Source: Streptomyces sp. Mut1 (lineage in GTDB: Bacteria > Actinomycetota > Actinomycetes > Streptomycetales > Streptomycetaceae). Taken from it: a stretch of DNA of 64,000 nucleotides. Where the stretch lies: NCBI RefSeq assembly GCF_030719295.1, contig NZ_CP120997.1:930001-994000 (forward strand), read 5' to 3'. The position numbers and the translations under genes were made by a program. The notes beneath the pieces were generated by a model that was given only the letters and a program-made list of their open reading frames with translations, searched no databases and was not told the origin of the DNA. Positions 9,494 through 25,848 of this stretch are shown here, piece after piece; the stretch's first letter is position 1; every line of letters begins with the position of its first letter.

Positions 9494-9535
9494 GTCACGG
9501 AACCCGGGCCGTCACGGAACCCGGGCCGTCACGGG
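9494..9535. repeat. 17-bp tandem duplication at the cvnD 3' end
   Basis: GTCACGGAACCCGGGCC occurs at 9494-9510 and again at 9511-9527, followed by a third partial copy (GTCACGGG, 9528-9535). The unit contains the last codons and stop of cvnD, so a spare copy of the gene's end lies just beyond the functional stop. It looks like a recent slippage or duplication event. Confidence 0.85.
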
Positions 9536-10126
9536 CGCGCGCCCCCGGTCCGCGCGGGACAGCGCGTGCTCGACGACGGCCACCAGTACGTCCCGCGCCG
9601 ACGGGCGGTCCCGCGCGTCGCACGTGAGGAGCGGCACCTCCGGGTCCAGGTCGAGCGCCTCCCGTACCGTCGCCGGCGGGAAGCGGTCCGTGCCCTCGAA
9701 GCAGTTGACCGCGACCGCGAACGGGATCTTGCGCCGCTCGAAGTAGTCGATCGCCGCGAAGCAGTCCCCCAGGCGCCGGGTGTCCGCGAGGACGACCGCG
9801 CCCAGCGCACCCTGGGCCAGCTCGTCCCACAGGAACCAGAAGCGGTCCTGCCCCGGCGTGCCGAAGAGGTACAGCACCAGGTCCTCGCGGAGCGTGATCC
9901 GCCCGAAGTCCATGGCCACCGTCGTCGTGGTCTTCGCCTCGACGCCGTCCAGGTCGTCCACCGGACGCCCCGCCTCGGTCAGCCTCTCCTCCGTGCGCAG
10001 CGGCCTGATCTCACTGACCGCGCCCACCAGCGTCGTCTTGCCCACGCCGAAGCCGCCCGCCACCAGGATTTTGAGGGTGACGGGCTCCACGGACCGCCTG
10101 CTGCGGCTAGAGCGCCCGAAGGCCAT
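9512..10126 (-). CDS. cvnD: Conservon GTPase-like protein CvnD
   Basis: CvnD proteins are small Ras/MglA-like nucleotide-binding proteins that work with CvnA-C at the membrane, much like a heterotrimeric G-protein module. The P-loop GGFGVGKTT lies at about residues 24-32, DFGRI and the GTPGQDRFW switch-II motif follow, and VNCFEG occupies the place of the base-specificity motif. The length of 204 residues is normal. The start at 10126 overlaps the end of cvnC by 20 bases, implying coupled translation. The last codons lie in a 17-bp tandem repeat. Confidence 0.93.
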   Translation of the reverse strand: MAFGRSSRSRRSVEPVTLKILVAGGFGVGKTTLVGAVSEIRPLRTEERLTEAGRPVDDLDGVEAKTTTTVAMDFGRITLREDLVLYLFGTPGQDRFWFLWDELAQGALGAVVLADTRRLGDCFAAIDYFERRKIPFAVAVNCFEGTDRFPPATVREALDLDPEVPLLTCDARDRPSARDVLVAVVEHALSRADRGRAPVTARVP

Positions 10127-10529
10127 TGATCACCTCACGGAGAATGTTCACGTCCGGCAGCTCGGCCGGCGGAACGGGACGGGTCACATGCACCAGTTCG
10201 TCCTCGACGAGGTCCCCGATCAGGACCCGGACCACCCCCACGGGGAGGTCCAGGGCCGAGGCGAGTTCGGCGATCGACTGGGGCAGCTCACTGCAGAGTT
10301 CGACGATCTCCACATGCTCCGGGGAGAGCATCTGGTCCCTGCCCGGGTCGTCGGCCGCGGGTTCGGGCACGACGATCGCGATCAGGTCGAGACGGTGGCG
10401 GGACGCACTGCTGGTCCGCCCGCGGGTCATCGCGTAGGGGCGGACGACCGGCCCCGCGTCGGCGTCGTACCAGCGCGGGGCCCGCGGCCTTGCCGGGGTG
10501 TCCGGGGAGCCGGGCGATTCGGCGCTCAT
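10107..10529 (-). CDS. cvnC: Conservon protein CvnC (DUF742)
   Basis: This 140-residue protein of the DUF742 family has a winged-helix-like fold and a partner role in conservon complexes. The conserved features are RPYAMTRGRT near residue 31, LIAIVV, LSPEHVEIVELC, and the helical region with LDLPVGVVRVLIGDL. It starts 10 bases after the cvnB stop and overlaps cvnD. Exact molecular function is unknown for the family. Confidence 0.92.
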   Translation of the reverse strand: MSAESPGSPDTPARPRAPRWYDADAGPVVRPYAMTRGRTSSASRHRLDLIAIVVPEPAADDPGRDQMLSPEHVEIVELCSELPQSIAELASALDLPVGVVRVLIGDLVEDELVHVTRPVPPAELPDVNILREVINGLRAL

Positions 10530-10538
10530 GCCGTCCGC

Positions 10539-10982
10539 TCACCCCCCGGAGGGCTGACCGGTCGTCCGGGGCGCGTTGGCCAGGTGGGCGCCCACGCGCT
10601 TGACCATCAGCGTCATCTCGTACGCCACCTGCCCCACGTCCGACTCGGACTCGGCCAGCACGGCGAGACAGCTGCCGTCGCCGGCCGCCGTGACGAACAG
10701 GAACGCCTCGTCCAGTTCGACCACGGTCTGGCGGACCCGGCCCGCGTCGAAGTGCCGGCCCACGCCCTTGGCCAGGCTGTGGAAGCCCGAGGCCACGGCG
10801 GCCAGGTGCTCGCTGTCCTCGCGCGACAGGTCCTTGGACGCGCCGGTGGCCAGGCCGTCGCTGGAGAGCACCAGCGCCTTGCGGATGCTGGCGACGCGCT
10901 CGACGAGTTCGTCGAGGAGCCAGTTCAGTTCGCCGGACCCCTGGCGTGCGGAGTCGGGTGCTGCGGCGTTCGGTGCGGTCAT
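10539..10982 (-). CDS. cvnB: Conservon protein CvnB (Roadblock/LC7)
   Basis: This 147-residue Roadblock/LC7 protein is expected to regulate the nucleotide state of CvnD, as MglB does for MglA. NWLLDELVERV and ALVLSSDGLATGAS form the typical first helix and strand pair, followed by the central helix, LFVTAAGDGSCLAVL, and a C-terminal helix ending YEMTLMVKRVG. Its ATG (10982) overlaps the cvnA stop as ATGA, so the two are translationally coupled. Confidence 0.93.
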   Translation of the reverse strand: MTAPNAAAPDSARQGSGELNWLLDELVERVASIRKALVLSSDGLATGASKDLSREDSEHLAAVASGFHSLAKGVGRHFDAGRVRQTVVELDEAFLFVTAAGDGSCLAVLAESESDVGQVAYEMTLMVKRVGAHLANAPRTTGQPSGG

Positions 10983-13783
10983 GGACCGTCCCCTCCCGGA
11001 GTGGTTCCTTGTGCTGTGTCACCGTGGCCGGTCACGTCCTCGGCGTTCTGCTGGCGGCCTCGCTGCCAGCCGCGCTGGAGCGAGGCCATACGGCTGCGTA
11101 CCTCTTCCGCGTCCCGCTCGATGTCGTCGGGGGCCGCCACCGGGTCCGGTCCTGCCGTGCCGCCGTCCGGTCCCTCGCGCAGTTGCACGACGAGGCTGGC
11201 CTGCCGGACGCGGCGGGGCAGTCCGCCCACCGTGTCCGCGGCGGGCCGGGGCGAACGGGGTGCGGGCACCGCGGGTTCGGCGGGCTCCGCGCGTTCGCGG
11301 AAGCCGGTGGGCTGCCGGGGCTCGGTTGCGCGGCGCCGGTCCACGGGCGGAACCGGGCGGACCGCTTCGGGATCGTCGGCGCCGGGGTGCGCCCGGCCGG
11401 CCTCGTCGACCCGGCGGCCCCGGTCCGCGACCAGCGTCGGCGGCCTGCGGCGACGGGGCAGCGGCCGGATGCCCTCGGGACGCAGCGCCCGGACGCCGTC
11501 GGAGTCCGCGAGGTGGTCGGCTGCCTGCTGGTGCTGCTCGCGGTCGCCGTCGCGGCGCAGTTCGCGGGCGCGGAAGATGCCGCCGCGCTCGCTCTCGGTG
11601 TCCTCCAGGTCGGACACTCCGTCGAGTACGGGGTCGAGCCCGGGTCCGGCCACCGCTTCGAGGACCGGGTCGCGGGTGAAGTCCAGGGGCCCCTCGGGGC
11701 CTTCGAGCTCGACGGGCCCGTCCAGCACGGCCGGGTCGACCAGTCCTGTCGGGACCGGGGACAGTCCGCCGGGGCGGCCCGGCACGGGTCCGGGGCCGGG
11801 CTCGTGGAGCGCGGCATCGCCGCCCGGCCCGCCGGCGATGGCCTTCTCGGACCTGCGGTCCAGGCGGAAGCCGGTGCCGTGCGATTCGGGGGCGTCCGTG
11901 AGGAGTGCGGCGGGGATGAACACCACCGCGGTGGTGCCTCCGTACGGGGATGTCTGGAGGGAGACCCTGACGTTCTGGCGCTGGGCGAGCCGGCTGACCA
12001 CGAAGAGGCCGAGGCGGTCGGTGTCGGAGAGCTCGAACTCGGGGGTCTCGGCGAGCCGGAGGTTGGCGTCCAGGAGGACGTCGGGGGGCATGCCGAGCCC
12101 CCGGTCGTGGATCTCCAGGGTGAAGCCGTTGGCGACCCGCTCGCCGAGCACCTGGACGGCGGTGTGCGGGGGCGAGAACACCGTGGCGTTCTCCAGGAGT
12201 TCGGCGATCAGGTGGGTGAGGTCGGCGACGGCTGGGCCGCCCACCCCGATGCGGGGCAGCCGGCGGACCTCGATCCGTTCGTAGTCCTCGACCTCGGCGA
12301 CGGCGGCCCGCACCACGTCCATCAGCTGGATGGGCTTGCGCCACTGCCGGGACGGGGCCGCCCCGGAGAGGATCACCAGGCCCTCGGCGTGGCGGCGCAT
12401 GCGGGTGGTGAGGTGGTCGAGGCGGAAGAGGTCGGCGAGTTCCTCGGTGTCCTCCGTGCGCCGCTCCATCGTGTCCAGGAGCGTGAGCTGGCGGTGCAGC
12501 AGGACCTGGTTGCGCCGGGCGAGGTTGACGAAGACCTCCGAGACGCCCCGGCGCATGTCGGCCTGCTTGACCGCGGCTTCGACGGCGGCGCGTTGCAGGG
12601 TGTTGAGGGCCTGGCCGACCTGGCCGATCTCGTCGCGCTCGTACTGGAGGTGCGGGGACTCGGTCTCCACATCGACGTGCTCGCCCGCGGCGAGCCGGCG
12701 CATCACGCTCGGCAGGCGTACCCCGGAGACCTCGTGGGCGTCCTTGCGCAGCCGGGAGAGGTCGCGGACGAGTTCGCGGCCGATGCGTACGGAGACGAAG
12801 ACGGAGACGAGGAGGGCCAGGAAGCCGAGGACGCCGGCGATGCCCGCCTTGATCAGGACTCCGTAGCCGGCGGGTTTGCCGCGGTCCTGGAAGCGGTTGT
12901 TCATCTCGGTCGAGTCGTTGGCCAGCCGTTCCAGGGCGGGCGGGGCGACTTCCTGCCAGCGCGCGGCGTCGACGGCGCGCGGGCTGGTGGTGGGGCCCTG
13001 GCTGATGATCTTGTCCTCGGCGGAGCGCAGCGGCTCGCTGTCCGGGCCCTGCCAGTACTGCTGGACGCGCCGGCGTTCGGAGGCGGGGAGCAGGTCGAGG
13101 TTGATCTCGTTCAGCAGTTGGCGCTGGGCGACGAGGTCGGAGATCTGCCGGAGTTCGGGGGCGGTGAGGCGGCCCGCCAGCAGGCCCGAAGCGATCAGGG
13201 CGTCTTCCCTGGAAAGCATCTCGCGGGCGCGGGACAGTCCGGTCAGCGCCCGGACCTGCTGGTCCATGGTGACGTTCTCCATGGTGTGCAGGCCGGTCAG
13301 GAAGCGGTAGCAGGGGTCGATGAGGCGGTTGTAGTAGGCCATCGCCTTGAGCCGGCCGATGGTGCGTTCGTCGACGGAGTCGCGCAGGGCGTCCAGTCCC
13401 TCGACGGCGCCGAGTATCGAGGCGAGCTGGGTCTCGGCGCTCGGGCCGAGCGCGTCGCGGATGTCCTTCTGCTCGGCGCTGCGGCTGACCTCGGCGACGA
13501 CCCGGTCGGTGGCGGCGCGCCGGTTGCGCAGCACGGGCAGGGCGTCGGAGGCGCGCGGGTCGGCGAGGAAGACGAGGGTCTGGCGGCGCTCGCTCTGGAT
13601 GACCCGGACGGTGTCCTCCAGGGGGTGGCCCACCTTCTCCACGATGGCGCTCGCACTGAGCAGTTTCCCGGCCTCGCGCCCCGTGAGGTAAGTGGCGAAT
13701 CCCCACAGCGCGGTGAGGGAGACGAGCGGCACGAGCAGCAACGCCACGATCTTCCTGCGGATGGACTTTCCGCGAAAGCGCAT
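10979..13783 (-). CDS. cvnA: Conservon sensor histidine kinase-like protein CvnA
   Basis: The 934-residue membrane sensor begins with a transmembrane helix (about residues 12-31) and a large extracytoplasmic nitrate/nitrite-sensor-like helical domain. A second helix near 310-335 leads to a HAMP region and an atypical dimerisation helix (LLHRQLTLLDTMERR). The ATPase domain has ELLENATVFSPP, DRGLGMP and DRLGLFVVSRLA. The last 300 residues or so are proline/arginine-rich and probably disordered. No standard phospho-acceptor histidine motif was obvious, which is usual for CvnA. The start MRFRGKSIRR at 13783 was chosen because GGGGGAGG precedes it. It is the first gene of cvnABCD. Confidence 0.93.
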   Translation of the reverse strand: MRFRGKSIRRKIVALLLVPLVSLTALWGFATYLTGREAGKLLSASAIVEKVGHPLEDTVRVIQSERRQTLVFLADPRASDALPVLRNRRAATDRVVAEVSRSAEQKDIRDALGPSAETQLASILGAVEGLDALRDSVDERTIGRLKAMAYYNRLIDPCYRFLTGLHTMENVTMDQQVRALTGLSRAREMLSREDALIASGLLAGRLTAPELRQISDLVAQRQLLNEINLDLLPASERRRVQQYWQGPDSEPLRSAEDKIISQGPTTSPRAVDAARWQEVAPPALERLANDSTEMNNRFQDRGKPAGYGVLIKAGIAGVLGFLALLVSVFVSVRIGRELVRDLSRLRKDAHEVSGVRLPSVMRRLAAGEHVDVETESPHLQYERDEIGQVGQALNTLQRAAVEAAVKQADMRRGVSEVFVNLARRNQVLLHRQLTLLDTMERRTEDTEELADLFRLDHLTTRMRRHAEGLVILSGAAPSRQWRKPIQLMDVVRAAVAEVEDYERIEVRRLPRIGVGGPAVADLTHLIAELLENATVFSPPHTAVQVLGERVANGFTLEIHDRGLGMPPDVLLDANLRLAETPEFELSDTDRLGLFVVSRLAQRQNVRVSLQTSPYGGTTAVVFIPAALLTDAPESHGTGFRLDRRSEKAIAGGPGGDAALHEPGPGPVPGRPGGLSPVPTGLVDPAVLDGPVELEGPEGPLDFTRDPVLEAVAGPGLDPVLDGVSDLEDTESERGGIFRARELRRDGDREQHQQAADHLADSDGVRALRPEGIRPLPRRRRPPTLVADRGRRVDEAGRAHPGADDPEAVRPVPPVDRRRATEPRQPTGFRERAEPAEPAVPAPRSPRPAADTVGGLPRRVRQASLVVQLREGPDGGTAGPDPVAAPDDIERDAEEVRSRMASLQRGWQRGRQQNAEDVTGHGDTAQGTTPGGDGP

Positions 13784-14183
13784 GGCCTCCCCCAGCTCGC
13801 CCCCGCGGGGCGGGGATGGTGTTTCGTCAACAAACGGCGCGAGCCTACTACCGACACACAGACAACTCGAAGGCACGTCCGGACGATTTTCGGCCGCCTT
13901 ACCGGGAGTTGACCATGACTTGTCCTGGTATTCCTGGAGATGAAATTCACGGAAGAGACGGAAGAGGCCCGGGGGACCGGCACGTTCCTTCCCGTCCCGG
14001 TTGGCTGGAATTCTTCGTTTCGTGACGGCTGGGAGGAATCTTCACCGCGGGCCACTCGTCCATCAGTACGGGGGTAGGGGGACTGCGGGGGCACTCTCGG
14101 CAGGACGGGACGGACCGTCCGCGTAGAAAGGGTGTATGCCGGGCAGCAACCCTGAAGTCGGACAGCGGTGGGAGTGAAGGGCC
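13784..14183. other. Divergent intergenic region between cvnA and a membrane protein gene
   Basis: These 400 bases hold no convincing gene. They are less GC-rich than the flanks around 13,850-13,960 and must contain promoters for cvnABCD leftward and for the membrane protein rightward. I could not assign a -10/-35 pair with confidence. Confidence 0.5.
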
Positions 14184-14669
14184 TTGGACACACAGGAACG
14201 TCGTGACGCGGCGGAGCCGGCGGAGGCCGGGGCGGCGGAGGGCGTGGGCGAGTGGGAGTGGGAGTGGGCGGCTGTTCCGCGCCGGCCGCTCTGGGTCGAG
14301 GAGCCGGCGCTGCGGCGGCGGATGCCGGACCCGGTGCGCACGGCGGCGGTCCGGGCGGTGCTCATCATGTCGTTGACGGTGATTCTGGCGATGGTCGCCT
14401 TCCTGACCGCGCTGGCCGGGTCCTGGCTGTCCTTCCCGATGGTGCTGAGCGGGGTGGCGAGCACGGTGGTCGCGACCTGGTCGGTGCTGGACGTCTGGGT
14501 CACCCGCCAGGTGTGGAACCAGCGCAACGGCGTCGTCTCCATGCCCAGCAGCTCGGCCCGGCAGCTGCGCCGCGAACGCCGCTGGGCGCGCCGGGCGGCC
14601 CGTGCCGCGCAGCGGGAGGCCTCCCGGATACGCCGCGGGAGCGCCGACCGCCGTCTCTCCCGGGCCTGA
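14184..14669 (+). CDS. Small integral membrane protein, two helices
   Basis: This 161-residue protein of unknown function has a short acidic N-terminus with a WEWEWE stretch. Two transmembrane segments (about residues 57-80 and 84-106) form a hairpin, followed by a strongly basic C-terminal tail rich in arginine that should face the cytoplasm and could bind nucleic acid or phospholipid. The start is TTG at 14184 with GAAGGG upstream; no ATG or GTG is available in frame. It converges on the SMC-like gene with 21 bases between stops, in the place where a jetD gene would lie in a Wadjet locus, but it is on the opposite strand and not a nuclease. Confidence 0.75.
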   Translation: MDTQERRDAAEPAEAGAAEGVGEWEWEWAAVPRRPLWVEEPALRRRMPDPVRTAAVRAVLIMSLTVILAMVAFLTALAGSWLSFPMVLSGVASTVVATWSVLDVWVTRQVWNQRNGVVSMPSSSARQLRRERRWARRAARAAQREASRIRRGSADRRLSRA

Positions 14670-14690: not shown

Positions 14691-17600
14691 CTACGGAGCC
14701 GTGCGGGTCTCCTCGGCGGGCTCGGAGGCGGCCTGCGCGGGCAGCGTCCGCGGGGCCGGAGCGCCGCGCTTGAACATGCGGGTGGCGGTGATTTCTCCGT
14801 GCACGGTCTCGCTGCCCGGGTCCTGCTGCGGCAGTCCGGGGCGCAGGTGCTCCTCGACGCTGATGTATTTCAGGCCCGCCCGCAGGTCCGCGTCATTGCG
14901 CAACCTGATCACGAGCGGGAATTCCGCGAGGGCCGTCGTATCGAACAGCCCGGTGGTGTACAGCAGTTGCACGCCCAGCGCGTCGGAAACCGCGCGCTGG
15001 AGCTCCAGCAGATAAGTGGCGTTGGCGCGGCCGATCGGATTGTCCAGGAAGAGCGTGCCCGCGTGGCGGTGCTGGGCGCGGTCGCGTCCCCGGTCGTTGC
15101 TGCGCAGGGCGGCCATCGTGCAGTACAGGGCGATGGCCGCGGTGAGGAGCTGGCCGCCGGAGAAGACGTCGCCCATCTGACCGACCGGTACGCGCTCGGC
15201 GCGCAGGACGGCGTCCGGCTTGAGGATCTCCACCGCGATGCCCCTGGGCTCCAGGGCCGCCCCGACACCGCGCAGGAGCAGGGACATCCCGTCCCGGCGC
15301 AGGTCGGAGTTCTTCTTGAGGGCCGCCTTCGTCGCCTCGTCGATGACCTCTCCGAGCCGTTCGGTCAGGGTGGCCTGGTCGGGTTCCTCGAAGCGGATGC
15401 GGAGGAATTCCTGCCCGGACCACTCCCCCAGGCCCTCGGGGAGCCGGGAGAGCCGCTGGGCGGAGCGGAGCGTGGTGAGCGCGGACTCCACGAGGCCGCG
15501 CAGCCGGTCGACGATGGAGTCGCGGTTGCGTTCCAGCTGGGCCAGCTCGTCGGTGAGGACCCGCAGCCGGGGTGCGAAGGCGGTGGCCCACTTCTCCGCG
15601 TGCTCGGGAAGCGCCGCCGCGGGCAGCTCGCGGATCTGCTGGCGGGCGGGGGTGCGGACCTGCTCGTAGCGGGTGGAGTTGGCGTGCCGTACGAGGACAT
15701 CGCTCGCCTCCCGTACGGCCGCTTCGGCGGCGGACAGGTCGGCGGCGCAGCCGCGCAGGGAGCGGCGGGCCTCGGCGGCGGACTGCCGGGCCTCCTCCAG
15801 GCTGCCGGGGTACGGCTCGGGGCTCTCCGGGTCGTCATCGGCGCCGTGGTCCCTGAGCAGGTCGCGCAGCAGGGCGGCGGTCTCCTCGAAGCCGCCCGCC
15901 GAGTCCTCGGCGGTGCGGTGGGAGTGGAGCAGCTCGGTGTGCGCGGCGCGGGCGGTGTCCAGTGCGGCGGTCGCGGAGGCCAGCTCGGCGGTGGCGGTGC
16001 GCAGGAGGGCCTGGGCCTGTTCGGCGTCGGCGGGCACCTGCTCGTCGGGCAGTTCGGTGTGCAGGCTCTCGCCGTCGGCGGGCGCCAGGCGTTCGGCTTC
16101 TCCGCGCAGCCGGCCGAGCTGCTCGCTGGCCGTGGAGGCACGGGTCTCCAGGAGCTGGACGAGGGACTCGGCGCGGGCGGCGGCGGCCTGCCGGGACGGG
16201 CCGTCGGCGCCGTCGGTGCCCTCCAGGAGCTGGGCGGCCCGGGTGCGGACCTTGTTGGTGAGCCGGTCCAGCTCGGCGAGCGCGGCGCTCTCGTCGCTCT
16301 CTGCGCGGGCCTGTTCGGCGCGCAGGTCGGCGCCGACGCCGACCTTCTCGTAGAGCTGGGAGGCCGCGCGGTAGGCCTCGCGCAGGGCGGGCAGGGCCTG
16401 CCGCGGGGCGTCGTCGCCGAGGTCCGGGATCGTCTCGGGAGCGCCGGCGATCTCGGCCCGTTCGGCGCGCAGGGCGCGGGCGGTGCGGCGGGCGTCGTCG
16501 GCGGCGCGCTGGGCGGCCCGGCGGTCCTCGTCGGCGATCCGGGCCCGCTCCAGGAACACGGTGGCGCGGGCCTCGGACTCCGCCGCCTCGTCGGTCAGTT
16601 CGCGCAGCTTGGCCTGCCAGCCCGCCCGTTCGCGGAGCCGGAAGGCGAGTCCGGCGAGCGCGTCGGCGGCCCGGCGGGCGCGCTGGGCGGCCTCCTGGCG
16701 CTCCTCGCGGACGCGGGCGGTGTCGGCGGCGGCCTCGTCGGCCTCGGCCCGGACCGTACGTGCCTCGGCGAGGGCGGCCTCGGCCGTCTCGGCTGCCGTG
16801 CGGGCGGATCCGGCGGCTTCGGCGAGCTCGGCGAGCATGCCGGGCGGGCAGTCGGCGCGCCAGGAGCCGATGCGGGCGGCGAGCGCGCGGTCGGCTCCGA
16901 GACGGGCGGCGAGCACCCGGATGTCCTCGTCGCGGGCGGCGGCCCGGCTCCGCAGGGCGTGGCGCTCCTCGTCGGCGGCGTGCTCGTCGTGCATGGCCGG
17001 GTTCGGCGGTACGAGGAAGACCCCGTCGCCGCCGGCGTAGGGGCCGGTGCCCGGGTCCGGCACCGGGGCGAGCAGGGCGGCCGCGGTGCCGACGGCGACG
17101 GCGGAGCGCGGCAGCAGAGCCGCGGCGCCGAGGACTTCGCGGGCGCGGGCGTGCGCGTCGGGGTCGGTGATGACGACGCCGTCGACGAGCTCGGGCCGGG
17201 CGGCGAGGACGGCCGCGTGGTCGGCGGGGTCGACGGCCTGGGCGAGGTAGCGCCAGCCGGGCAGGGCGGGGATGCCCTGCTCGCCGAGGTATTCCACGGT
17301 GGCGAGCACGTCGGGTCCCGGCGGCAGGAGGCCGCCGTCGCCGAGGGCGCCCAGGATGCGTGAGTCGTCGGCCGCCGCGGTGCGCAGTTCGAACAGGCGT
17401 CGTTCGGCGGCGCCGACGCCCTGGTCGAGCAGGTCGCGCAGCTCATCCGCGCCGCGGTCGAACTCGTCGGCGGTGAGGGCCTGTTCGGCGGTCCGTGCGG
17501 CGGTGGCTGCGGGCGCGCCGTGCGGGGCGGGTTCGGCTCCGTCCGGGGCGGCAGGTCCAAAGCCGGGGCCCTCGTCGTGCCGGTGCTGGTTGTCGGCGCT

Positions 17601-19502
17601 CTGCCCGGTCCCGGGGGCGGCGGCCTGCCGGGGCCTGGGCACCCCGCCGGTCCGGTCGGCGGGCAGCCCGAGCAGTTCGGCGAGGCGGGGCTCGGCGGCG
17701 ATCGACTCGGCGGCCCTCAGCTCGGCCTCGTAGGCCTGTTCGGCGGCTCGGGCGCCGTCGGCGGCGCGCGCCGCCGCCAGTTCGGCGCGGCTCTCGTCGG
17801 CGGTGGCCTGCCTGGCCAGGTCCGCGGCGGCGCCGGCGGCCTCGCGGGCGGTGTCCCAGGAGGCCACGGCGGCCTGTTCGGCGTCGTTGGCGGCGAGGGC
17901 GGCCCTGGCCGGGTCGGCGTGGGGTGCGGTGTCGTCCAGCCAGCCGGCCCGGACGGCCTCGGCGGTCTCCTGCTCCACCTCGGCCAGGCGCTGGCGCAGA
18001 TGGCCGGCCTCGCTGCGGGCACGCTGGGCCTCGGTGGCGGCGGTGGTGGCGTCGCGGTGGGCGGCCTCGCCGGCGCTCTGGAGGGTGTCGGAGCGCTCTT
18101 CCTCCTCGTTGGCCCGGTTCTCACCCGCTTCGGCGGCGGTGTGCAGGGCCCGTACGAGGTCGGCCGCCGCACTGGCGCGGGCGGCGAGCGCGGGGGCGGC
18201 GTCGCGCTCGGCCTCCCGGATCGCCACGGCGACGCGCGCGGAGCGGTCGGCGGCGGCGCGGTGGCGCAGGACGGCTTCGGCGGCCTGCCAGGCGGAGTGC
18301 AGGGTGCGGGCGTCGCCCAGCTCGCGGCGCCCGGCGGCGGCGCTCTTCTCGGCGGCGGTCAGGGCCAGCGACGCGTGCCGGTAGGCGAGTTCGGCGGCGA
18401 TCAGGGCGAGACGGCCGCGGGTCTCCTCGGCGCCCGTGACGGTGTGGGCGGCGGCGGTGACCTGCTGGGCGAGCTCGGCCGTCCGGCCGCGTTCCTCGCC
18501 GGCGCGGGCGGAGAGCCTGCGGGCCAGGGTGCGGGTGCGGCGCTCGGCGCCGGCGTGGATGTCGCGGGTGCGGGCACGGGTTCCGGCGGCCTCGACGATG
18601 CGGCCGAGCAGGTCGACGGAGCCGGCGGTGAAGTCGCGTTCCGCGGTGAGTTCGGCGCGGCGGCCCAGTTTGTTGCCGAAGCCGCTGACCAGGTCGGCGA
18701 GGCCGTCCGTGTCACGGGTGTCGGTGACGGCGCGCAGCAGCAGGTCGGTGAAGTCGGAGTCCTTCTTCACCGCGAAGAGGCCGGCCGCCTCGCCCTCGTC
18801 GGCGTTCATCTCGCGCTGGTACCGGAAAAGTTCGGGGTCCAGGCCCAGTTCGCCGAGGTGTTCGTTCCAGCGGTCGTGGATCTCTTCCCAGTGCACGTCG
18901 AGGTGCTGGTAGAACTTGCCGGCCTCGGTGAGCGCGTCCCGGAAGCCCTTCATGGTGCGGCGCCTGCCCCGGGCGCCGGAGACGCCCTCGGCGGGGCGGC
19001 CGACGGCGGTGGACTCCGCGACGGGCAGCGAGTCGAGGCCGAGCCCGGGTCCTGGCCGGAAGGAGTACCAGGCCTCGGCGAACTTCCGGGGGTCGTTGGA
19101 GACCTGGCGTCCGCGCCACTCGCTGACCTTGCCGACGACCACGCACTCGCCGGTCAGCGTGTGCTGCCACTCCAGCGCGACATGGCCGCAGTCGTCGGCG
19201 AGCAGGAATTTGCGCAGGACGCCGGAGCTGGCGCCGCCCAGGGTGTTGCGGTGGCCCGGCAGCATCACCGAGAAGATCAGCTTCAGCAGGACGGACTTGC
19301 CGCCGCCGTTCTCCAGGAAGAGCACGCCGGCCGGGGCGGGCCTGCGCGGCGGGCCGACCGGTTCCTCCTCGAAGAACTCCGCCTGCGCCGGGGCGGGGTG
19401 GGGCACGGGCTCGCCCACTCCGCGCAGGTCGAGCACGGTGTCGGCGTAGCGTGCGCCGGCAGGTCCGATGGAGTAGAGGCGGACCCGGGACAGCTCGTAC
19501 AT
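14691..19502 (-). CDS. SMC/MukB-like coiled-coil ATPase (MksB/JetC-like)
   Basis: The 1603-residue product has split ATPase halves around a very long Ala/Arg/Glu-rich coiled coil (about residues 200-1400). This architecture fits a chromosome- or plasmid-acting condensin. The N-terminal P-loop is LENGGGKS (residues 63-70). The C-terminal half has the ABC signature FSGGQ (1447-1451) and a Walker B region LFLDNP (Asp1487). Two departures from SMC consensus are visible: the first P-loop glycine is Leu, and the residue after the Walker B Asp is Asn instead of Glu. It is the last gene of a three-gene operon (22117 to 14691) and starts 70 bases after the MukE-like gene. DNA-loop extrusion or plasmid restriction is inferred from architecture only. 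Confidence 0.8.
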   Translation of the reverse strand: MYELSRVRLYSIGPAGARYADTVLDLRGVGEPVPHPAPAQAEFFEEEPVGPPRRPAPAGVLFLENGGGKSVLLKLIFSVMLPGHRNTLGGASSGVLRKFLLADDCGHVALEWQHTLTGECVVVGKVSEWRGRQVSNDPRKFAEAWYSFRPGPGLGLDSLPVAESTAVGRPAEGVSGARGRRRTMKGFRDALTEAGKFYQHLDVHWEEIHDRWNEHLGELGLDPELFRYQREMNADEGEAAGLFAVKKDSDFTDLLLRAVTDTRDTDGLADLVSGFGNKLGRRAELTAERDFTAGSVDLLGRIVEAAGTRARTRDIHAGAERRTRTLARRLSARAGEERGRTAELAQQVTAAAHTVTGAEETRGRLALIAAELAYRHASLALTAAEKSAAAGRRELGDARTLHSAWQAAEAVLRHRAAADRSARVAVAIREAERDAAPALAARASAAADLVRALHTAAEAGENRANEEEERSDTLQSAGEAAHRDATTAATEAQRARSEAGHLRQRLAEVEQETAEAVRAGWLDDTAPHADPARAALAANDAEQAAVASWDTAREAAGAAADLARQATADESRAELAAARAADGARAAEQAYEAELRAAESIAAEPRLAELLGLPADRTGGVPRPRQAAAPGTGQSADNQHRHDEGPGFGPAAPDGAEPAPHGAPAATAARTAEQALTADEFDRGADELRDLLDQGVGAAERRLFELRTAAADDSRILGALGDGGLLPPGPDVLATVEYLGEQGIPALPGWRYLAQAVDPADHAAVLAARPELVDGVVITDPDAHARAREVLGAAALLPRSAVAVGTAAALLAPVPDPGTGPYAGGDGVFLVPPNPAMHDEHAADEERHALRSRAAARDEDIRVLAARLGADRALAARIGSWRADCPPGMLAELAEAAGSARTAAETAEAALAEARTVRAEADEAAADTARVREERQEAAQRARRAADALAGLAFRLRERAGWQAKLRELTDEAAESEARATVFLERARIADEDRRAAQRAADDARRTARALRAERAEIAGAPETIPDLGDDAPRQALPALREAYRAASQLYEKVGVGADLRAEQARAESDESAALAELDRLTNKVRTRAAQLLEGTDGADGPSRQAAAARAESLVQLLETRASTASEQLGRLRGEAERLAPADGESLHTELPDEQVPADAEQAQALLRTATAELASATAALDTARAAHTELLHSHRTAEDSAGGFEETAALLRDLLRDHGADDDPESPEPYPGSLEEARQSAAEARRSLRGCAADLSAAEAAVREASDVLVRHANSTRYEQVRTPARQQIRELPAAALPEHAEKWATAFAPRLRVLTDELAQLERNRDSIVDRLRGLVESALTTLRSAQRLSRLPEGLGEWSGQEFLRIRFEEPDQATLTERLGEVIDEATKAALKKNSDLRRDGMSLLLRGVGAALEPRGIAVEILKPDAVLRAERVPVGQMGDVFSGGQLLTAAIALYCTMAALRSNDRGRDRAQHRHAGTLFLDNPIGRANATYLLELQRAVSDALGVQLLYTTGLFDTTALAEFPLVIRLRNDADLRAGLKYISVEEHLRPGLPQQDPGSETVHGEITATRMFKRGAPAPRTLPAQAASEPAEETRTAP

Positions 19503-19572
19503 GGCGGCGGACTCTCGTCGTTCGGGAAGCGGGGGGAAAGACGTCGGGGCGGGGCGGCCGGCCCGGCGGTGG

Positions 19573-20493
19573 TCAGCCGTGGAAGGGCAGGCCCGCGTCG
19601 GCCGCCAGTTCCAGGTCGTCGGGGTCCGGGGGCGGCAGCAGGGTGGCGCTGCCGTCGGTGACGGGGACGACGCCCAGCTCCAGGAGCTCGGCCATGGCGG
19701 CGCTGCCGGCCATGTCGCGGACCTGGAGCTGGTAGCGGGCGGTGGTGCGGTAGGTGCCTCCGGCGTCGTCTCCGGTGCGCTGGAGGAAGCCGGAGTCGGT
19801 GAGGAAGGCGACGGCCTTGCCGATGATGCCGGTGGTGGAACCGGCGAGCCGGCGGGCGTCCTTCGTCGCGCCGGTGGCGCTGCGCCGGGCGTAGACGCGC
19901 CAGCCGGCCTCCAGGCCCGGGGCCTCGCTGACCGGGTCGGTGTTGTCGCCCTGCTCCTCGGCGCGCTCCTCCAGGCGGTTGCACGCCTGGCGGACGAAGG
20001 CGTCGACGCCGTTGACCGTGATCCGGCCGATGTACGCGTCGTCGGCGAGGTCCTCGGGGCGCGGGAAGGCCATGGCGGCGACGGCGAGGTGGGCGAGGCC
20101 GTGCAGGAAGCGGTCCGCGGAGTCCGACGAGGCGCGGCGGGCGTAGTCGCCCATGCGGACGGCGAAGACCGAGTCCTCGCCCGCCGTGACGGCCATGCCG
20201 GCCCGGGGGGAGACCTCCAGGACGATGAGGCCGAGACCGGTGGCCACGGCGTCGGCGAGCCGGGCGAAGGCGGTGTCGTCCCGGTAGCGGCGCAGCAGTT
20301 CGGCGTACTCGGCGTCGCGGGCGGGCAGCAGCTTGGGCTGGAGGCCGAAGGCGACGAGCCGGGCGGCGTCGGCCGCGTCCGCCGGGGTGACGGCGGCCGG
20401 TGCGGGCGCGGCCCGGTCGGGCTCGTAGGCGGAGGCGGGCCGGTCGGCGGGCTCGCTCCACGCGTCGGTGTGCTCTGCGCGGTGGTCGCTCAC
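19573..20493 (-). CDS. MukE/MksE/JetB-like accessory protein
   Basis: This 306-residue acidic protein has no membrane segment. The N-terminal 40 residues look disordered. The core has AEYAELLRRY and LGLIVLEVSPRAG, then a winged-helix-like C-terminal half ending in strands (YRTTARYQLQVRDM). Size, position between the kleisin-like and SMC-like genes, and winged-helix character fit a MukE/JetB subunit, which binds the kleisin and DNA. I infer this from operon order; sequence motifs alone are not decisive. The GTG at 20493 has AAGGAG upstream. Confidence 0.6.
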   Translation of the reverse strand: MSDHRAEHTDAWSEPADRPASAYEPDRAAPAPAAVTPADAADAARLVAFGLQPKLLPARDAEYAELLRRYRDDTAFARLADAVATGLGLIVLEVSPRAGMAVTAGEDSVFAVRMGDYARRASSDSADRFLHGLAHLAVAAMAFPRPEDLADDAYIGRITVNGVDAFVRQACNRLEERAEEQGDNTDPVSEAPGLEAGWRVYARRSATGATKDARRLAGSTTGIIGKAVAFLTDSGFLQRTGDDAGGTYRTTARYQLQVRDMAGSAAMAELLELGVVPVTDGSATLLPPPDPDDLELAADAGLPFHG

Positions 20494-20590
20494 GACACTC
20501 GCTCCTTGCTGCGGAAAGTCCGGTGAAGAGTTCTGCGGAGGGGCCGGTGCGGGGCCCCGGAGCCACTCGTACGGAAAGGTGGGCGGGAGG

Positions 20591-22117
20591 TCATGACGCC
20601 TCCGAGCGGTCCGCCGCCATGCCGGCCGCGTCGAGCAGGGCGGTGCCCACGATCAGGTCGGCGCCGCCGAACTCGTCGTCGTCCAGCGGGGTGCCGTCGT
20701 CCACGGAGAAGAGCAGACGGCGCTCGCCCTGGCGGTAGGCGGTGCCGACCGGGGGGCTCGCGGCGTGCACCGCGAGCAGGGCGACCAGGTAGGGCAGGTC
20801 GGAATCGCTCCGCCGGGCGTCGGCCAGGAGCCCGGACAGGCGGCGCGGCGCGTCGTGCTCCAGATCGAGCAGTTCCATCGCGGCGGCCAGCTGCTCCTCA
20901 CTGAACCGGCTGTCGTCCGGGGTGGCGATGAGGTCCGGCTCGGGCATCTCGGCGCCGAGGTGTTCGCGGGCCGGCGGCGGGCTCAGGAGCAGGTCGACCA
21001 GGTCGCCCACCCGGACGGAGACCGGGGTGCGCAGGCCCGTGCCCCGGGCGAAGAAGGCGTCGGTGGCCCGGGTCGCCTGTTCGACGGGGAGCGGCAGCAG
21101 CGGGGCCAGGAGCTGTCCGTACAGATCGAGGCCGGTGCGGGCGGCGGGTGCGGCGAAGGCCTGCCGGTCCTGTTCGGCGCGGAAGAGGGGGCCGGCCTCC
21201 AGCAGCCGGGACTGGAGCTGGGTGTGGCGGCGGATGCAGTCCTTGACGATGTCGACCAGCTCGGCGGCGCGGCGCTTGTGCTCGGGATCCTCGGCCTCGT
21301 CGCGGGCCTTGCGGATGTTGGTGAGGATCGCGTTCTCGTGGCGGTAGCGGTCGGCTACGTGGTCGAGCGCCTCGGCGATCATGTCGGGCACGGTGTTGAG
21401 CCAGTCGACCGCGCGGACGTTGCGCCGGGTGGCGTCGAGCGTCTTGCGGAGGGTCTCCGCGTACTGCACGGTCCGGTAGCGGGCCTGCTCGGCGGCGAGC
21501 TGGGCGTCGGCCAGCCTGCCCCGGCTGATCAGGACCTCCAGCTTCACCTCGGCGGCGATCTGGGCGCTGGTGACGTCCGTGTCGAGGGCTCCGACCAGGA
21601 CGTTGACCGCTTCGTCGGTGGCCCTGAGGTAGACGCTGCCGCCGTGCCCGGGGACCTCCTCGATGAGCTTGAAGTCGTAGTCGCGGCGGACGTAGACGCC
21701 GTCGGGCCCGAACGTGCCGTAGACGGCGCGGAATCCACGGTCCACGCTGCCGACGTTGATCAGGTTCTCCAGGACCCAGCGGGCGACCCGTTCGTGCTCG
21801 GCGGCCGGGCGGCCGGGGGCCTGGGCGGCGACGCGCGGGAGGAGCCTGGTCACTATCTGGTCGTGGTCGGCGCCGGTGTCGAAGTCCATGTTGAGCGTGA
21901 CGTGGTCGATGGCCGCGAGGGCGACCTCGGCCATGGCGTAGCCGCTGTACTCACCGGCGAGGTTCGCCTTGCGGACGTCCAGGTCGTGCAGCGGCGCGGT
22001 GCAGGCGAGCGCGCGCAGCCGACGCGAGAGCCCCTCGTCGGCGGCCGGGCCCGGTGCGGGCCGGGGCCCCGCGCTGAGCTGGGGCGCAGCGTTGTCCGTG
22101 TAGGCAGGCGAAGTCAC
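20591..22117 (-). CDS. Kleisin-like (MukF/MksF/JetA-like) protein
   Basis: This 508-residue mostly helical protein carries an apparent winged helix near residues 80-170 (ARWVLENLINVG, VYVRRDYDFKL, VYLRATDEAVN). A long helical arm region and a C-terminal domain with strands (RLLFSVDDGTPL) follow. It is first in a kleisin-MukE-SMC order, the order seen in jetABC and mks operons. The GTG at 22117 was preferred over TTG at 22147. A TAATCT hexamer ends seven bases before the GTG, which would give a leaderless mRNA. Function as the bridging subunit of a condensin-like complex is inferred. Confidence 0.6.
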   Translation of the reverse strand: MTSPAYTDNAAPQLSAGPRPAPGPAADEGLSRRLRALACTAPLHDLDVRKANLAGEYSGYAMAEVALAAIDHVTLNMDFDTGADHDQIVTRLLPRVAAQAPGRPAAEHERVARWVLENLINVGSVDRGFRAVYGTFGPDGVYVRRDYDFKLIEEVPGHGGSVYLRATDEAVNVLVGALDTDVTSAQIAAEVKLEVLISRGRLADAQLAAEQARYRTVQYAETLRKTLDATRRNVRAVDWLNTVPDMIAEALDHVADRYRHENAILTNIRKARDEAEDPEHKRRAAELVDIVKDCIRRHTQLQSRLLEAGPLFRAEQDRQAFAAPAARTGLDLYGQLLAPLLPLPVEQATRATDAFFARGTGLRTPVSVRVGDLVDLLLSPPPAREHLGAEMPEPDLIATPDDSRFSEEQLAAAMELLDLEHDAPRRLSGLLADARRSDSDLPYLVALLAVHAASPPVGTAYRQGERRLLFSVDDGTPLDDDEFGGADLIVGTALLDAAGMAADRSEAS

Positions 22118-22124
22118 GCTGCAC

Positions 22125-22130
22125 AGATTA
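22125..22130 (-). promoter_or_regulatory. Candidate -10 box for leaderless transcription of the SMC operon
   Basis: On the minus strand TAATCT ends seven bases before the GTG start at 22117, the spacing seen for leaderless Streptomyces mRNAs. No ribosome-binding site is visible, in agreement. A good -35 box was not found. Confidence 0.35.
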
Positions 22131-22218
22131 GGTCCTCGGACTGACAACGGTCGAAACGGCGCAGAAGGGCCCGCCTGCCCCGGAGTCGGTCACGCCCCGC
22201 CGCCCGGCCGTCCGGCGC

Positions 22219-25200
22219 TCAGCCGCCCCCGGCGTCCTCGGCCGGCTCCCCGTATCCGCCGCCTCCGGGGGTGCGCAGGACGAGCACGTCCCCGGCGCCG
22301 GTGTCCGCGCTGTCGCAGCCCTTGAGCGGGGTGCGGCTGCCGTCGGGGTGTTCGATGTGCTGGCTGCCCAGTGCGCCGGGCGCGCCGCCCGCCATGCCGT
22401 ACGGCGGGACCCGCCGGTGTCCGGTGAGCAGGGCCACCGTGACCGGTTCGAGGAAGCGGATGCGGCGTTCCACCCCGCGGCCGCCGTGGTGGCGGCCCGC
22501 TCCCCCGCTGCCCTCCCGTACCCGGAAGCTCTCCAGCAGGACCGGGTAGCGCCACTCCAGGATCTCGGGGTCGGTGAGGCGGGAGTTGGTCATGTGGGTC
22601 TGTACGGCGTCGGTGCCGTCGAAGTCCTCGCCCGCGCCCGATCCGCTGGCCACCGTCTCGTAGTACTGCACCCGGTCGTTGCCGAAGGTGAGGTTGTTCA
22701 TGGTGCCGGAGCCCTCTGCCTGGACGCCGAGGGCGGCGTAGAGGGCACCGGTCACGGCCTGCGAGGTCTCGACGTTGCCGGCGACCGTGGCGGCGGGCGG
22801 GGCGGGCGCCAGCATGGAGCCCTCGGGGACCCTGATCTCCAGCGGGGTGAGGCAGCCGCTGTTGAGCGGGATGTCCTCGGCGACCAGGGTGCGGAAGACG
22901 TAGAGGACGGCGGCCATGACGACCGAGGTGGGGGCGTTGAAGTTGCCCGGCTGCTGCGGGGAGGTGCCGGTGAAGTCGATCACCGCGCTGCGCGCCTCGC
23001 GGTCGACGGTGAGCGTCACCTCGATCACGGCGCCGTTGTCGGTCTCGTACCGGTAGCGCCCGTCGTGCAGCCCGGCGATGATGCGGCGTACCGACTCCTC
23101 GGCGTTGTCCTGCACATGGCCCATGTAGGCGTCCACGGCTTCGGTGCCGAACTGCTCGACCATGGCGCGCAGTTCGGCGATGCCCTTCTCGTTGGCGGCG
23201 ATCTGGGCGCGCAGGTCGGCGAGGTTGGTCGCGGGGTCGCGGGAGGGGTACGCGGCGGTGGTGAGGAGTTGCCTGGTGGCGTCCTCGCGCAGGGTGCCGT
23301 CCCGCACCAGGAGCCAGTTGTCGAAGAGGACGCCCTCCTCCTCGACGGTGCGGCTGAAGGCGGGCATGGAGCCGGGGGTGATGCCGCCGATCTCGGCGTG
23401 GTGGCCGCGCGAGGCCACCAGGAACTTCAGCACCGGCGTGCTGCCGGACTCGTCGAACACGGGCGTCACGACGGTGACATCGGGCAGGTGGGTCCCACCG
23501 TGGTACGGGTCGTTGATGGCGTACACGTCGCCGGGGCGCATGGTTTCGGCGTTGCGGTGGAGCACCTCCTTGATGGACTCCCCCATGGAGCCGAGGTGCA
23601 CCGGGATGTGCGGGGCGTTGGCGATCAGGTTGCCGTGCGCGTCGAACAGCGCGCAGGAGAAGTCGAGCCGTTCCTTGATGTTGACGGAGCGGGCCGTGTT
23701 CTCCAGGGTCACGCCCATCTGCTCGGCGATCGACATGAAGAGGTTGTTGAAGACCTCCAGCATGACCGGGTCGACGCGGGTGCCGACGGCCTGCCGGGCG
23801 GGGCGCGGGCGGGCCCGGGTGAGGACCAGGTGTCCGGTGGCGGCGAGTTCGGCCTGCCAGCCCGGGTCCACGACGGTGGTGGCGTCGGCCTCGGCGATGA
23901 CGGCGGGGCCGGTGACGGTGTCGGTGGCCCTGAGGCCGGTCCTGAGGTGGAGCGGGGCCTCCTGCCACCGGCCGTCCGCGAACATCCGCGCGGTGTCGTG
24001 CGGGCGGGGCGTGGTGGGGGCGTCCTCGTCCCGCTCGGCCGGCCGGATCTCGGCGTGCGCGCCGGCCGTTCCGGTGGCCTCGACGGAGACCGTCTCCACG
24101 ATGAGCCGCCGGTCCGCCGTGAAGCCGTAGCGGGAGCGGTGCTCGTGGGTGAACGCCTCGGTCATGGCCGCCGCCGTGTCCAAGGCGACGGGGAGGCTCG
24201 CGTCGGTGCCCTCGTACCGCAGCAGGACCCGGGCCCGGGTGCTGATCGCTTCGTCGGGGACTCCGTCGGCGCGCAGGTCGGCCCGGGTGCGGGCGGCGAG
24301 CTCGTCGCAGAGTTCCCGTACCCGGGTCACCGCCCCGCCTTCCAGGGCGGCTTCGAAGGACTGCTCGCGCATGGCGGTGGCGTCGGCGAGGCCGATGCCG
24401 TACGCGGACAGCACACCGGCCAGCGGGGGTACGAGGACCGTGTCGACGCCGAGCGCGTCGGCGACGGCGCAGACGTGCTGGCCGCCGGCCCCGCCGAAGC
24501 CCGTGAGGGCGTAGCGGGTGATGTCGTGTCCGCGCTGCACGGAGATCTTCTTGACCGCGCCCGCCATGGCGAGCACGGCGATCTCCAGGAACCCGGCGGC
24601 GGTCTCGGCCGCGGTGCGCTTGGTGCCGGTGGCCCGCGCGACGTCCTCGGCGAGTTCCTCGAAGCGTTCGCGCACGATGTCCGCGTCGAGGGGCTGGTCG
24701 CCGTCCGGCCCGAAGACGGCGGGGAAATGCGCGGGCCGGATGCGGCCCAGCATGACCTGGGCGTCGGTGACGGTCAGCGGCCCGCCCCTGCGGTAGCAGG
24801 CGGGACCCGGGACCGCCCCGGCCGAGTCGGGGCCGACCCGGTAGCGCCGGCCGTCGAAGTGCAGGACCGAGCCGCCGCCGGCCGCGACGGTGTGGATGTT
24901 CATCATGGGGACGCGCATCCGCGCGCCCGCGACCTCGGTGCCCAGTTCGCGTTCGAACTCGCCCGCGAAGTGCGAGACGTCGGTGGAGGTGCCGCCCATG
25001 TCGAAACCGATGACCCGGTCGTGGCCGGCCTGCGCCGAGGTGCGGACCATGCCGACGACCCCGCCCGCGGGTCCGGAGAGCACCGCGTCCTTGCCCCGGA
25101 AGTGCGCTGCCTCGCGCAGGCCGCCGTTGGACTGCATGAACATCAGCCGGATGCCGGGCAGTTCGGCGGCGACCGAGTCGACGTACCGGCGCAGGATCGG

Positions 25201-25848
25201 TGAGAGATAGGCGTCCACGACGGTGGTGTCCCCGCGCGGGACGAGCTTGATCAGCGGGCTGACCTCGTGGGAGCAGCTGATCTGGGTGAATCCGGCGGCC
25301 CTGGCCTCGGCGGCGACGGCCTGCTCGTGGGCCGGGTGGCGGTAGCCGTGCATCAGGACGACGGCCGCACTGCTCAGCCCGTCCTCCCGGGCGGCGCGCA
25401 ACCGCCCGGCCACGGCCTCCCGGTCCAGCGGCACGACGGTCCGGCCGTGGGCGTCGATGCGCTCGGGGACCTCGATGACCCGGTCGTACACGGCTTCCGG
25501 GAGCAGGATGCGGCGGTCGAAGAGGCGGGGGCGGTTCTGGTACGCGATGCGCAGGGCGTCCCGGAAGCCTTCGGTGATGACCAGGACGGTCGGTTCGCCG
25601 CGCCGCTCCAGCAGGGCGTTGGTGGCGACGGTGGTGCCCATCTTCACGGCGGCGACCCGGTCGGCGGGGACCGGTTCGCCCGCTCCGAGCCCCAGCATGA
25701 GCCGGATTCCGGCCACGGCGGCGTCCCGGTAGCGGTCCGGGTCGTGCGAGAGGAGCTTGCGGGTGACGAGTTGCCCGTCGGGGCGCCGTCCCACCACATC
25801 GGTGAACGTGCCGCCACGGTCGATCCAGAATTCCCAGCGCCCGGTCAT
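22219..25848 (-). CDS. ATP-dependent 5-oxoprolinase / hydantoinase A-B fusion
   Basis: The 1209-residue protein fuses the HyuA and HyuB subunits seen separately in hydantoinases, the layout of 5-oxoprolinase (5-oxoproline + ATP + water to glutamate). The N-terminal hydantoinase/oxoprolinase domain has [13 protein letters not shown]. The ATPase-like middle has [13 protein letters not shown] and GGGSV. The HyuB part begins near residue 680 and includes [18 protein letters not shown] and [13 protein letters not shown]. The C-terminus has glycine-rich strands. It stands as a single gene, 101 bases from the kleisin-like gene. Substrate (5-oxoproline versus a hydantoin) cannot be told apart by eye; the fused form favours oxoprolinase. 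Confidence 0.88.

Follow-up and report, generated by a model that had tools for sequence, protein, structure and literature searches.

A JetD-less SMC operon of Wadjet type III descent in Streptomycetaceae with a predicted DNA-damage-type promoter

We analysed a 64,000-nucleotide stretch of the genome of Streptomyces sp. Mut1 (hereafter the window; positions 930001-994000 of an 8-Mb genome) that carries a three-gene operon, jetABC. Kleisin, KITE and structural maintenance of chromosomes (SMC) genes lie side by side without a nuclease gene, the KITE gene being recognized by homology and position (Table 1). A first-pass annotation, made from the letters of the window, had described a same-strand order of kleisin-like, MukE-like and SMC-like genes with an SMC-like protein of 1603 residues, and the three minus-strand open reading frames (ORFs) were recovered exactly so. 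The longest ORF for jetA spans 20591-22147 (518 amino acids, aa). Because its start falls inside the promoter element described below, GTG 22117 is the likelier start; many JetA relatives are 508-514 aa long.

Table 1 Features of the jetABC locus, with positions in the window
Feature	Position	Strand	Remarks
jetA, kleisin, JetA3-like	20591..22117	-	508 aa from GTG 22117; PADLOC PDLC00567 JetA3, E 2.7e-190, 631.7 bits
jetB, KITE/MukE-like	19573..20493	-	306 aa; placed by homology and position between jetA and jetC
jetC, SMC ATPase, JetC3-like	14691..19502	-	1603 aa; PADLOC PDLC00588 JetC3, 1408.8 bits
Promoter element, RecA-NDp/PafBC-type, TTGTCAGTC-N8-TAATCT	22125..22147	-	Ends 7 nucleotides (nt) before jetA GTG; leaderless geometry
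Walker A FLENGGGKS, JetC residues 62-70	19293..19319	-	Identical in 33/33 core JetC
ABC signature VFSGGQLLTAA, JetC residues 1446-1456	15135..15167	-	
Walker B LFLDNPIGRA, JetC residues 1484-1493	15024..15053	-	D1487, N1488 and P1489 >90% in each group, JetD-bearing loci included
Converging small membrane-protein gene	14184..14669	+	161 aa; often a syntenic neighbour, outside the complex

The PADLOC profiles place JetA and JetC in Wadjet type III. JetB, for which PADLOC gave no direct match, was assigned by gene order and by homology, with 32-51% identity to the middle genes of nine type III loci that carry JetD. The JetB3 profile gave weak matches to ten JetB relatives (nine JetD-bearing, one from Frankiaceae), with a best E of 0.0008 and none in four of the ten. 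Pfam and NCBIfam returned no useful match for any of the three proteins, and PDB sequence searches returned no credible relative. Most of the relatives listed for JetA and JetB bear the name ‘hypothetical protein’ or ‘uncharacterized protein’, and occasional ones are called ‘membrane protein’ or ‘DUF3375 domain-containing protein’. Structure prediction against the MukBEF folds, proposed as a check in the first-pass annotation, gave a weak answer: MukE-MukF entries are among the best Foldseek matches, and both AlphaFold models are of low confidence. For the JetA model (predicted local distance difference test (pLDDT) 57), the four top-ranking Foldseek hits belong to MukE-MukF entries (E 0.02-0.22), we read these chains as MukF from their length, and MukE-MukF chains rank 7 by VIA-align. 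For the JetB model (pLDDT 46), 3euh_C, which we read as MukE from its chain length, ranks 6 with E 0.53 and a match probability of 0.84, the highest among the rows listed.

The operon is widely conserved. Of 101 genomes of the genus, 98 have JetA, with an identity of 82-95% once second copies and the genome of the window itself are set aside; two of the three misses are genomes only 78-82% complete and the third is a 1140-contig assembly. Across Streptomycetaceae, with family membership read from the names of relatives, any JetA match occurred in 120/121 genomes and 17/17 genera. The core copy, a group set by identity and synteny, occurred in 119/121 genomes and 16/17 genera; in one genome (G447) the sole JetA match is a divergent, JetD-bearing copy. 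A class sample gave matches in 51 of 345 genomes, comprising 33 of the genus and 18 of one other family, which a contig match (L060 and L098, Frankia sp. QA3) identifies as Frankiaceae; as four candidates were scored per genome, this search could have overlooked distant JetA of further families. All three genes match at 23 of the 24 core loci fetched from the genus. At core locus L042 (genome G012), jetA is truncated near residue 474-477 and the fetched stretch contains no jetB or jetC. At L082 (G449), core jetB and jetC match as several overlapping frame-shifted pieces, reflecting decay or sequencing error. The named loci and the loci of the sampled genomes used below come partly from the same genomes (e.g. 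L098 and L060), and in the alignments of 72 loci those without an ORF above the length cut (3 for JetB, 11 for JetC) were omitted.

Ratios of nonsynonymous to synonymous substitution rates (dN/dS), over ten comparisons per gene, were 0.10-0.16 for JetA, 0.12-0.32 for JetB and 0.12-0.30 for JetC; by this measure all three genes are under purifying selection. Given this selection and the presence of JetA in nearly all genomes of the genus, the three-gene arrangement is far beyond chance. Plasmid records contain no core JetA at an identity of at least 60% (five records match, all below 60%), and no phage matches core JetA, which suggests that the core operon is not mobile. On this distribution, we take it that jetABC is a core chromosomal operon of Streptomycetaceae. 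If the operon were instead a Wadjet remnant in decay, this would explain the loss of JetD and the genome with a truncated jetA and no jetBC. Purifying selection contradicts such decay, the invariant Walker A motif of core JetC also speaks against it, and we regard this explanation as very improbable.

The first-pass annotation saw no TOPRIM nuclease gene (jetD/mksG) next to the operon, and none was found by Pfam, PADLOC or a custom profile. Pfam JetD_C and DUF3322, as well as PADLOC JetD3, had no match in the whole genome of the window, and a JetD profile built from nine second-copy loci found nothing within the 64 kb of the window. These second copies provide a direct comparison. In nine genomes of the genus sample, a divergent jetABC encodes an additional JetA (26-53% identity), and in all nine a JetD-sized ORF that matches PADLOC JetD3 (PDLC00594) abuts or overlaps the end of jetC. 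A genus-wide JetD3 search gave strong matches (>150 bits) in exactly those nine genomes. JetD was detected by PF09983 in 13, by PDLC00594 in 16 and by the two together in 17 of the 101 genus genomes; 84 genomes had no match to either profile, and in 81 genomes core JetA is present while neither profile detects JetD anywhere. Of 11 further second-copy loci, the custom profile recovered JetD in ten; the remaining one (L087) ends inside jetC. The profile found none in any core locus fetched, and none at any of the 17 loci of the Frankiaceae JetD-less group, a group drawn after its JetD content was seen, so that the lack is partly by definition, and in which several contigs end early. JetD does accompany three more copies from Frankiaceae genomes (L063, L068 and L069). 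Among the named genomes, JetD is lacking at 59 of 59 assessable loci; 21 of the 80 named loci, with jetC or the downstream stretch incomplete, were not judged. The one weak JetD match, in L133 (E 0.08), covers a short segment upstream of jetA on the other strand. The core loci examined in related genomes yield no linked TOPRIM gene, and a distant jetD partner is excluded in 84 of the 101 genomes at the sensitivity of PF09983 and PDLC00594.

A full Wadjet system might still use an unlinked or unrecognized nuclease in trans. JetD3 is divergent, since four of the nine genomes with JetD3 by PADLOC escaped Pfam, and a still more divergent protein could be missed by both. Two observations speak against this: JetD is absent from 84/101 genomes by both profiles, and at each of the nine second copies in the genus, jetD adjoins jetC or overlaps with it. 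We consider a nuclease in trans quite unlikely.

In G090, second-copy JetA lies near both chromosome ends (C1:8873-10297 and 9228837-9230261) in opposite orientation and with equal scores, as expected in terminal inverted repeats, and the two JetD3 matches of this genome differ in length. An N-terminal tail of JetB was considered as a lost JetD-docking motif, with JetB ORFs of at least 520 aa left out of the comparison; by eye the motif is absent in JetD-bearing type III JetB too, so the tail is uninformative. The docking motif in question is IFDR, described for type I JetB (PMC10586767, cited here, as are the papers below, for the part of its text available).

Phylogenetic analysis suggests that JetD was lost at least once, perhaps twice, because JetD-bearing lineages fall outside both JetD-less clades. 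The tree of JetA contains a clade of Streptomycetaceae core rows (97/99) and a clade of JetD-less Frankiaceae rows (100/100); the node uniting the two is weakly supported (82/44). In a careful JetA+B+C tree of 21 rows, Frankiaceae group with the JetD-bearing rows (97/98). A quick JetA+B+C tree of 22 rows shows the same grouping, with a Shimodaira-Hasegawa-like approximate likelihood ratio test value of 93; an approximately unbiased test on the quick tree did not reject a single JetD-less clade (p 0.114). Frankiaceae carry a related JetD-less form.

LENGGGKS and LFLDNP, both noted in the first-pass annotation, are indeed present in JetC. The claim that these ATPase motifs are unusual, with a P-loop lacking its first glycine and asparagine in Walker B, did not survive comparison with relatives, for which the 12 commonest variants per group were listed. 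LFLDNP occurs in every core JetC variant listed. In JetD-bearing type III JetC (18 rows), LDNP occurs in all variants listed, with D, N and P each above 90%, and the first P-loop position is not glycine in 11 of the 12 variants. Since JetD-bearing relatives share the same motifs, the earlier argument from them falls; the JetC motifs are intact and ordinary for type III. We also looked for JetC positions separating JetD-bearing from core proteins. One alone passed the cut-offs (L100), and Frankiaceae carry the JetD-bearing letter there.

Immediately ahead of the jetA start, the upstream regions of 94 loci have a block in common. We take this block to match the RecA-NDp consensus, which reportedly goes back to Gamulin 2004. 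The element before jetA is the only strict match in the window. Genome-wide, the strict pattern gave 27 sites and a reversed control none. Downstream ORFs were scanned at 20 strict sites besides jetA, with 6 of the 27 sites left out, and 11 of the 20 are replication or repair genes as we read their Pfam domains: ung, rarA/mgsA, ruvC, a RecD2-type HHH protein, uvrB, a DnaN-type clamp, dnaX, xseA, a UvrD-like helicase, recA and a DinG-looking DEAD-box helicase. Six of these 11 show the same leaderless spacing of 6-7 nt, with starts picked mechanically. Strict sites also precede genes for a DUF2797 protein (L192), a SWIM zinc finger (L196), a HAD hydrolase (L189), a sigma factor with a SnoaL domain (L197) and a PrsW protease (L194). 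Upstream of jetA in Streptomycetaceae, the strict motif occurs at 37/105 loci and a relaxed form at 96/105, against 0.06 expected from mononucleotide shuffles, which preserve single-base composition only; one of 106 loci was omitted because its upstream sequence is short. Two other elements were rejected, with the SOS box GAAC-N4-GTTC at 0/94 and the WhiA-type GACAC and GTGTC at 7/94 and 5/94 loci.

The genome also encodes PafB and PafC as tandem WYL proteins, one with HTH_PafC, between the Pup ligase (PafA) and TatC. PafBC acts at RecA-NDp (PMC8223512, PMC6789036), the PafBC-binding motif closely resembles RecA-NDp and the promoter reaches beyond mycobacteria (PMC8223512). In S. coelicolor, RecA-NDp precedes the ultraviolet-inducible SCO6735 (PMC5087735). 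Our site set argues that a close form of the PafBC motif exists in the present Streptomyces, a genome other than S. venezuelae.

Together, our results incline us, by a slight degree, to the view that JetABC is a Wadjet-derived, nuclease-free SMC complex kept as a chromosome-maintenance condensin that is predicted to be DNA-damage-inducible. This view builds on features read from sequence: homology, conservation, the absence of JetD, ATPase motifs that are intact and a conserved promoter of RecA-NDp type, positioned as on recA and further repair genes. The first-pass annotation had suggested a chromosome-organizing rather than plasmid-cutting complex; family-wide conservation and the damage-type promoter speak for it, and the role itself is still one that we infer. 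Opinion can be evenly divided on a wider proposal, that Streptomycetaceae, and perhaps independently Frankiaceae, made Wadjet type III into a second condensin without its nuclease, that in Streptomycetaceae this condensin is damage-inducible and a core, though unannotated, member of the PafBC repair regulon, and that some JetD-bearing Wadjets are damage-induced as well.

Several points weigh against a damage-inducible condensin. The relaxed motif was loosened after loci failing the strict form had been seen, the motif-bearing loci are relatives and hence not independent, 9/105 Streptomycetaceae loci lack even the relaxed form and Frankiaceae carry it at 2/18 loci. According to PMC9380542 (2022), an initial search suggested that S. 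venezuelae lacks a conserved form of the PafBC motif of M. smegmatis, and the text left open whether a PafBC-type response exists in Streptomyces. The models support the kleisin and KITE folds only weakly. In the genome of L042, the complex is dispensable. Finally, JetD-bearing second-copy loci carry the motif in 7 of 20 cases (L046, L047, L049, L086, L087, L090 and L091; six with JetD, L087 ending before it), so the promoter alone does not mark a chromosomal job. Because these seven Wadjet loci carry a RecA-NDp-like promoter, damage-inducible Wadjet defence is possible.

The same seven loci bear on a defence complex that works without cutting, in which JetABC would sense small circular DNA such as plasmids or excised elements, compact or silence it, and be induced when damage frees mobile elements. 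In favour of this reading, the complex is related to anti-plasmid systems, and the shared promoter fits. The core operon is near-universal in its family, unlike the patchy JetD-bearing copies, and no effector gene is conserved alongside it across the 24 divergent loci compared, where none of the 14 largest neighbour clusters listed is common to Streptomycetaceae and Frankiaceae. We judge defence without cutting to be a serious but rather unlikely explanation.

Under the condensin reading, a mechanistic model can be outlined. The proposed total-extrusion model has the Wadjet core extruding DNA until a small circle is fully extruded, at which point JetD cuts (PMC10586767). Upon DNA damage, PafBC would switch on jetABC from a leaderless transcript. 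JetABC would then load on DNA and carry out ATP-driven loop extrusion or bridging, as proposed for the Wadjet and MukBEF cores. Without JetD, extrusion would end not in cutting but in compaction or tethering of damaged or replicating chromosomes, which may aid recombination, repair and segregation in multi-genomic hyphae. JetABC would act alongside the standard Smc-ScpAB; ScpA is encoded in the same genome.

The gene that converges on jetC from downstream is there, and by eye its ORF has a basic tail and two hydrophobic stretches, in keeping with the two-helix basic membrane protein of the first-pass annotation. The proposal that this protein is the effector of a divergent defence system fared less well. 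Proximity favours it: at 32 of the 60 assessable named loci, the gene is no more than 500 bp downstream. Its orientation is convergent, 8 of the 60 loci have it at a distance of 1-3.3 kb and 20 lack it, and it was not found at the Frankiaceae loci, several of which end early. By synteny we reject it as effector and conclude that it is not a constant partner; such a system is hardly credible. Directly upstream of the jetA ORF lies a large fused hydantoinase/oxoprolinase-like ORF (22219-25848, minus strand; named by eye). This hyuAB-like gene was rejected as a partner, as it adjoins jetA in only a minority of loci. At 9512-13876 (minus strand) lie a sensor-kinase-like gene and a small GTPase-like gene, which may resemble a Streptomyces conservon; the kinase gene is often syntenic with core jetABC.

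If the condensin reading holds, the best-studied antibiotic producers may contain an unnoticed second chromosome motor. Nature would then offer, in this operon, a clear example of a defence machine that became a housekeeper, with defence and nuclease-free forms in the same genomes. The operon would also allow tests of whether the DNA-damage response of actinobacteria includes an SMC motor, and of whether Streptomyces mounts a PafBC-type response. A literature search that took in few subscription papers or preprints found no description of the present complex and no paper placing jetABC or an SMC-like operon in the PafBC/RecA-NDp regulon. Wadjet is reported to be enriched in Actinobacteria, and towards chromosome ends in Streptomyces, in a paper whose main text, as available, does not mention JetD (PMC10482375).

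Compared with Wadjet type III, the present locus shares the jetA-jetB-jetC order, the JetA3 and JetC3 matches and the Walker A, signature and Walker B motifs. It differs in lacking jetD, in being near-universal in one family rather than patchy, and in its conserved damage-type promoter, which is also found on some JetD-bearing loci. Like MukBEF of enterobacteria, it would be a three-subunit condensin with kleisin, KITE and SMC; unlike MukBEF, jetABC does not replace Smc-ScpAB, because ScpA is present. MksBEF of Pseudomonas aeruginosa reportedly coexists with Smc-ScpAB. By analogy, the present complex may parallel this MksBEF (PMC10586767), from which it differs in its type III lineage in Actinomycetota, its damage-type promoter and its function, which is predicted. 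With the RecA-NDp/PafBC regulon, it shares the motif, the spacing and the leaderless placement seen on recA, uvrB and dnaX of its own genome.

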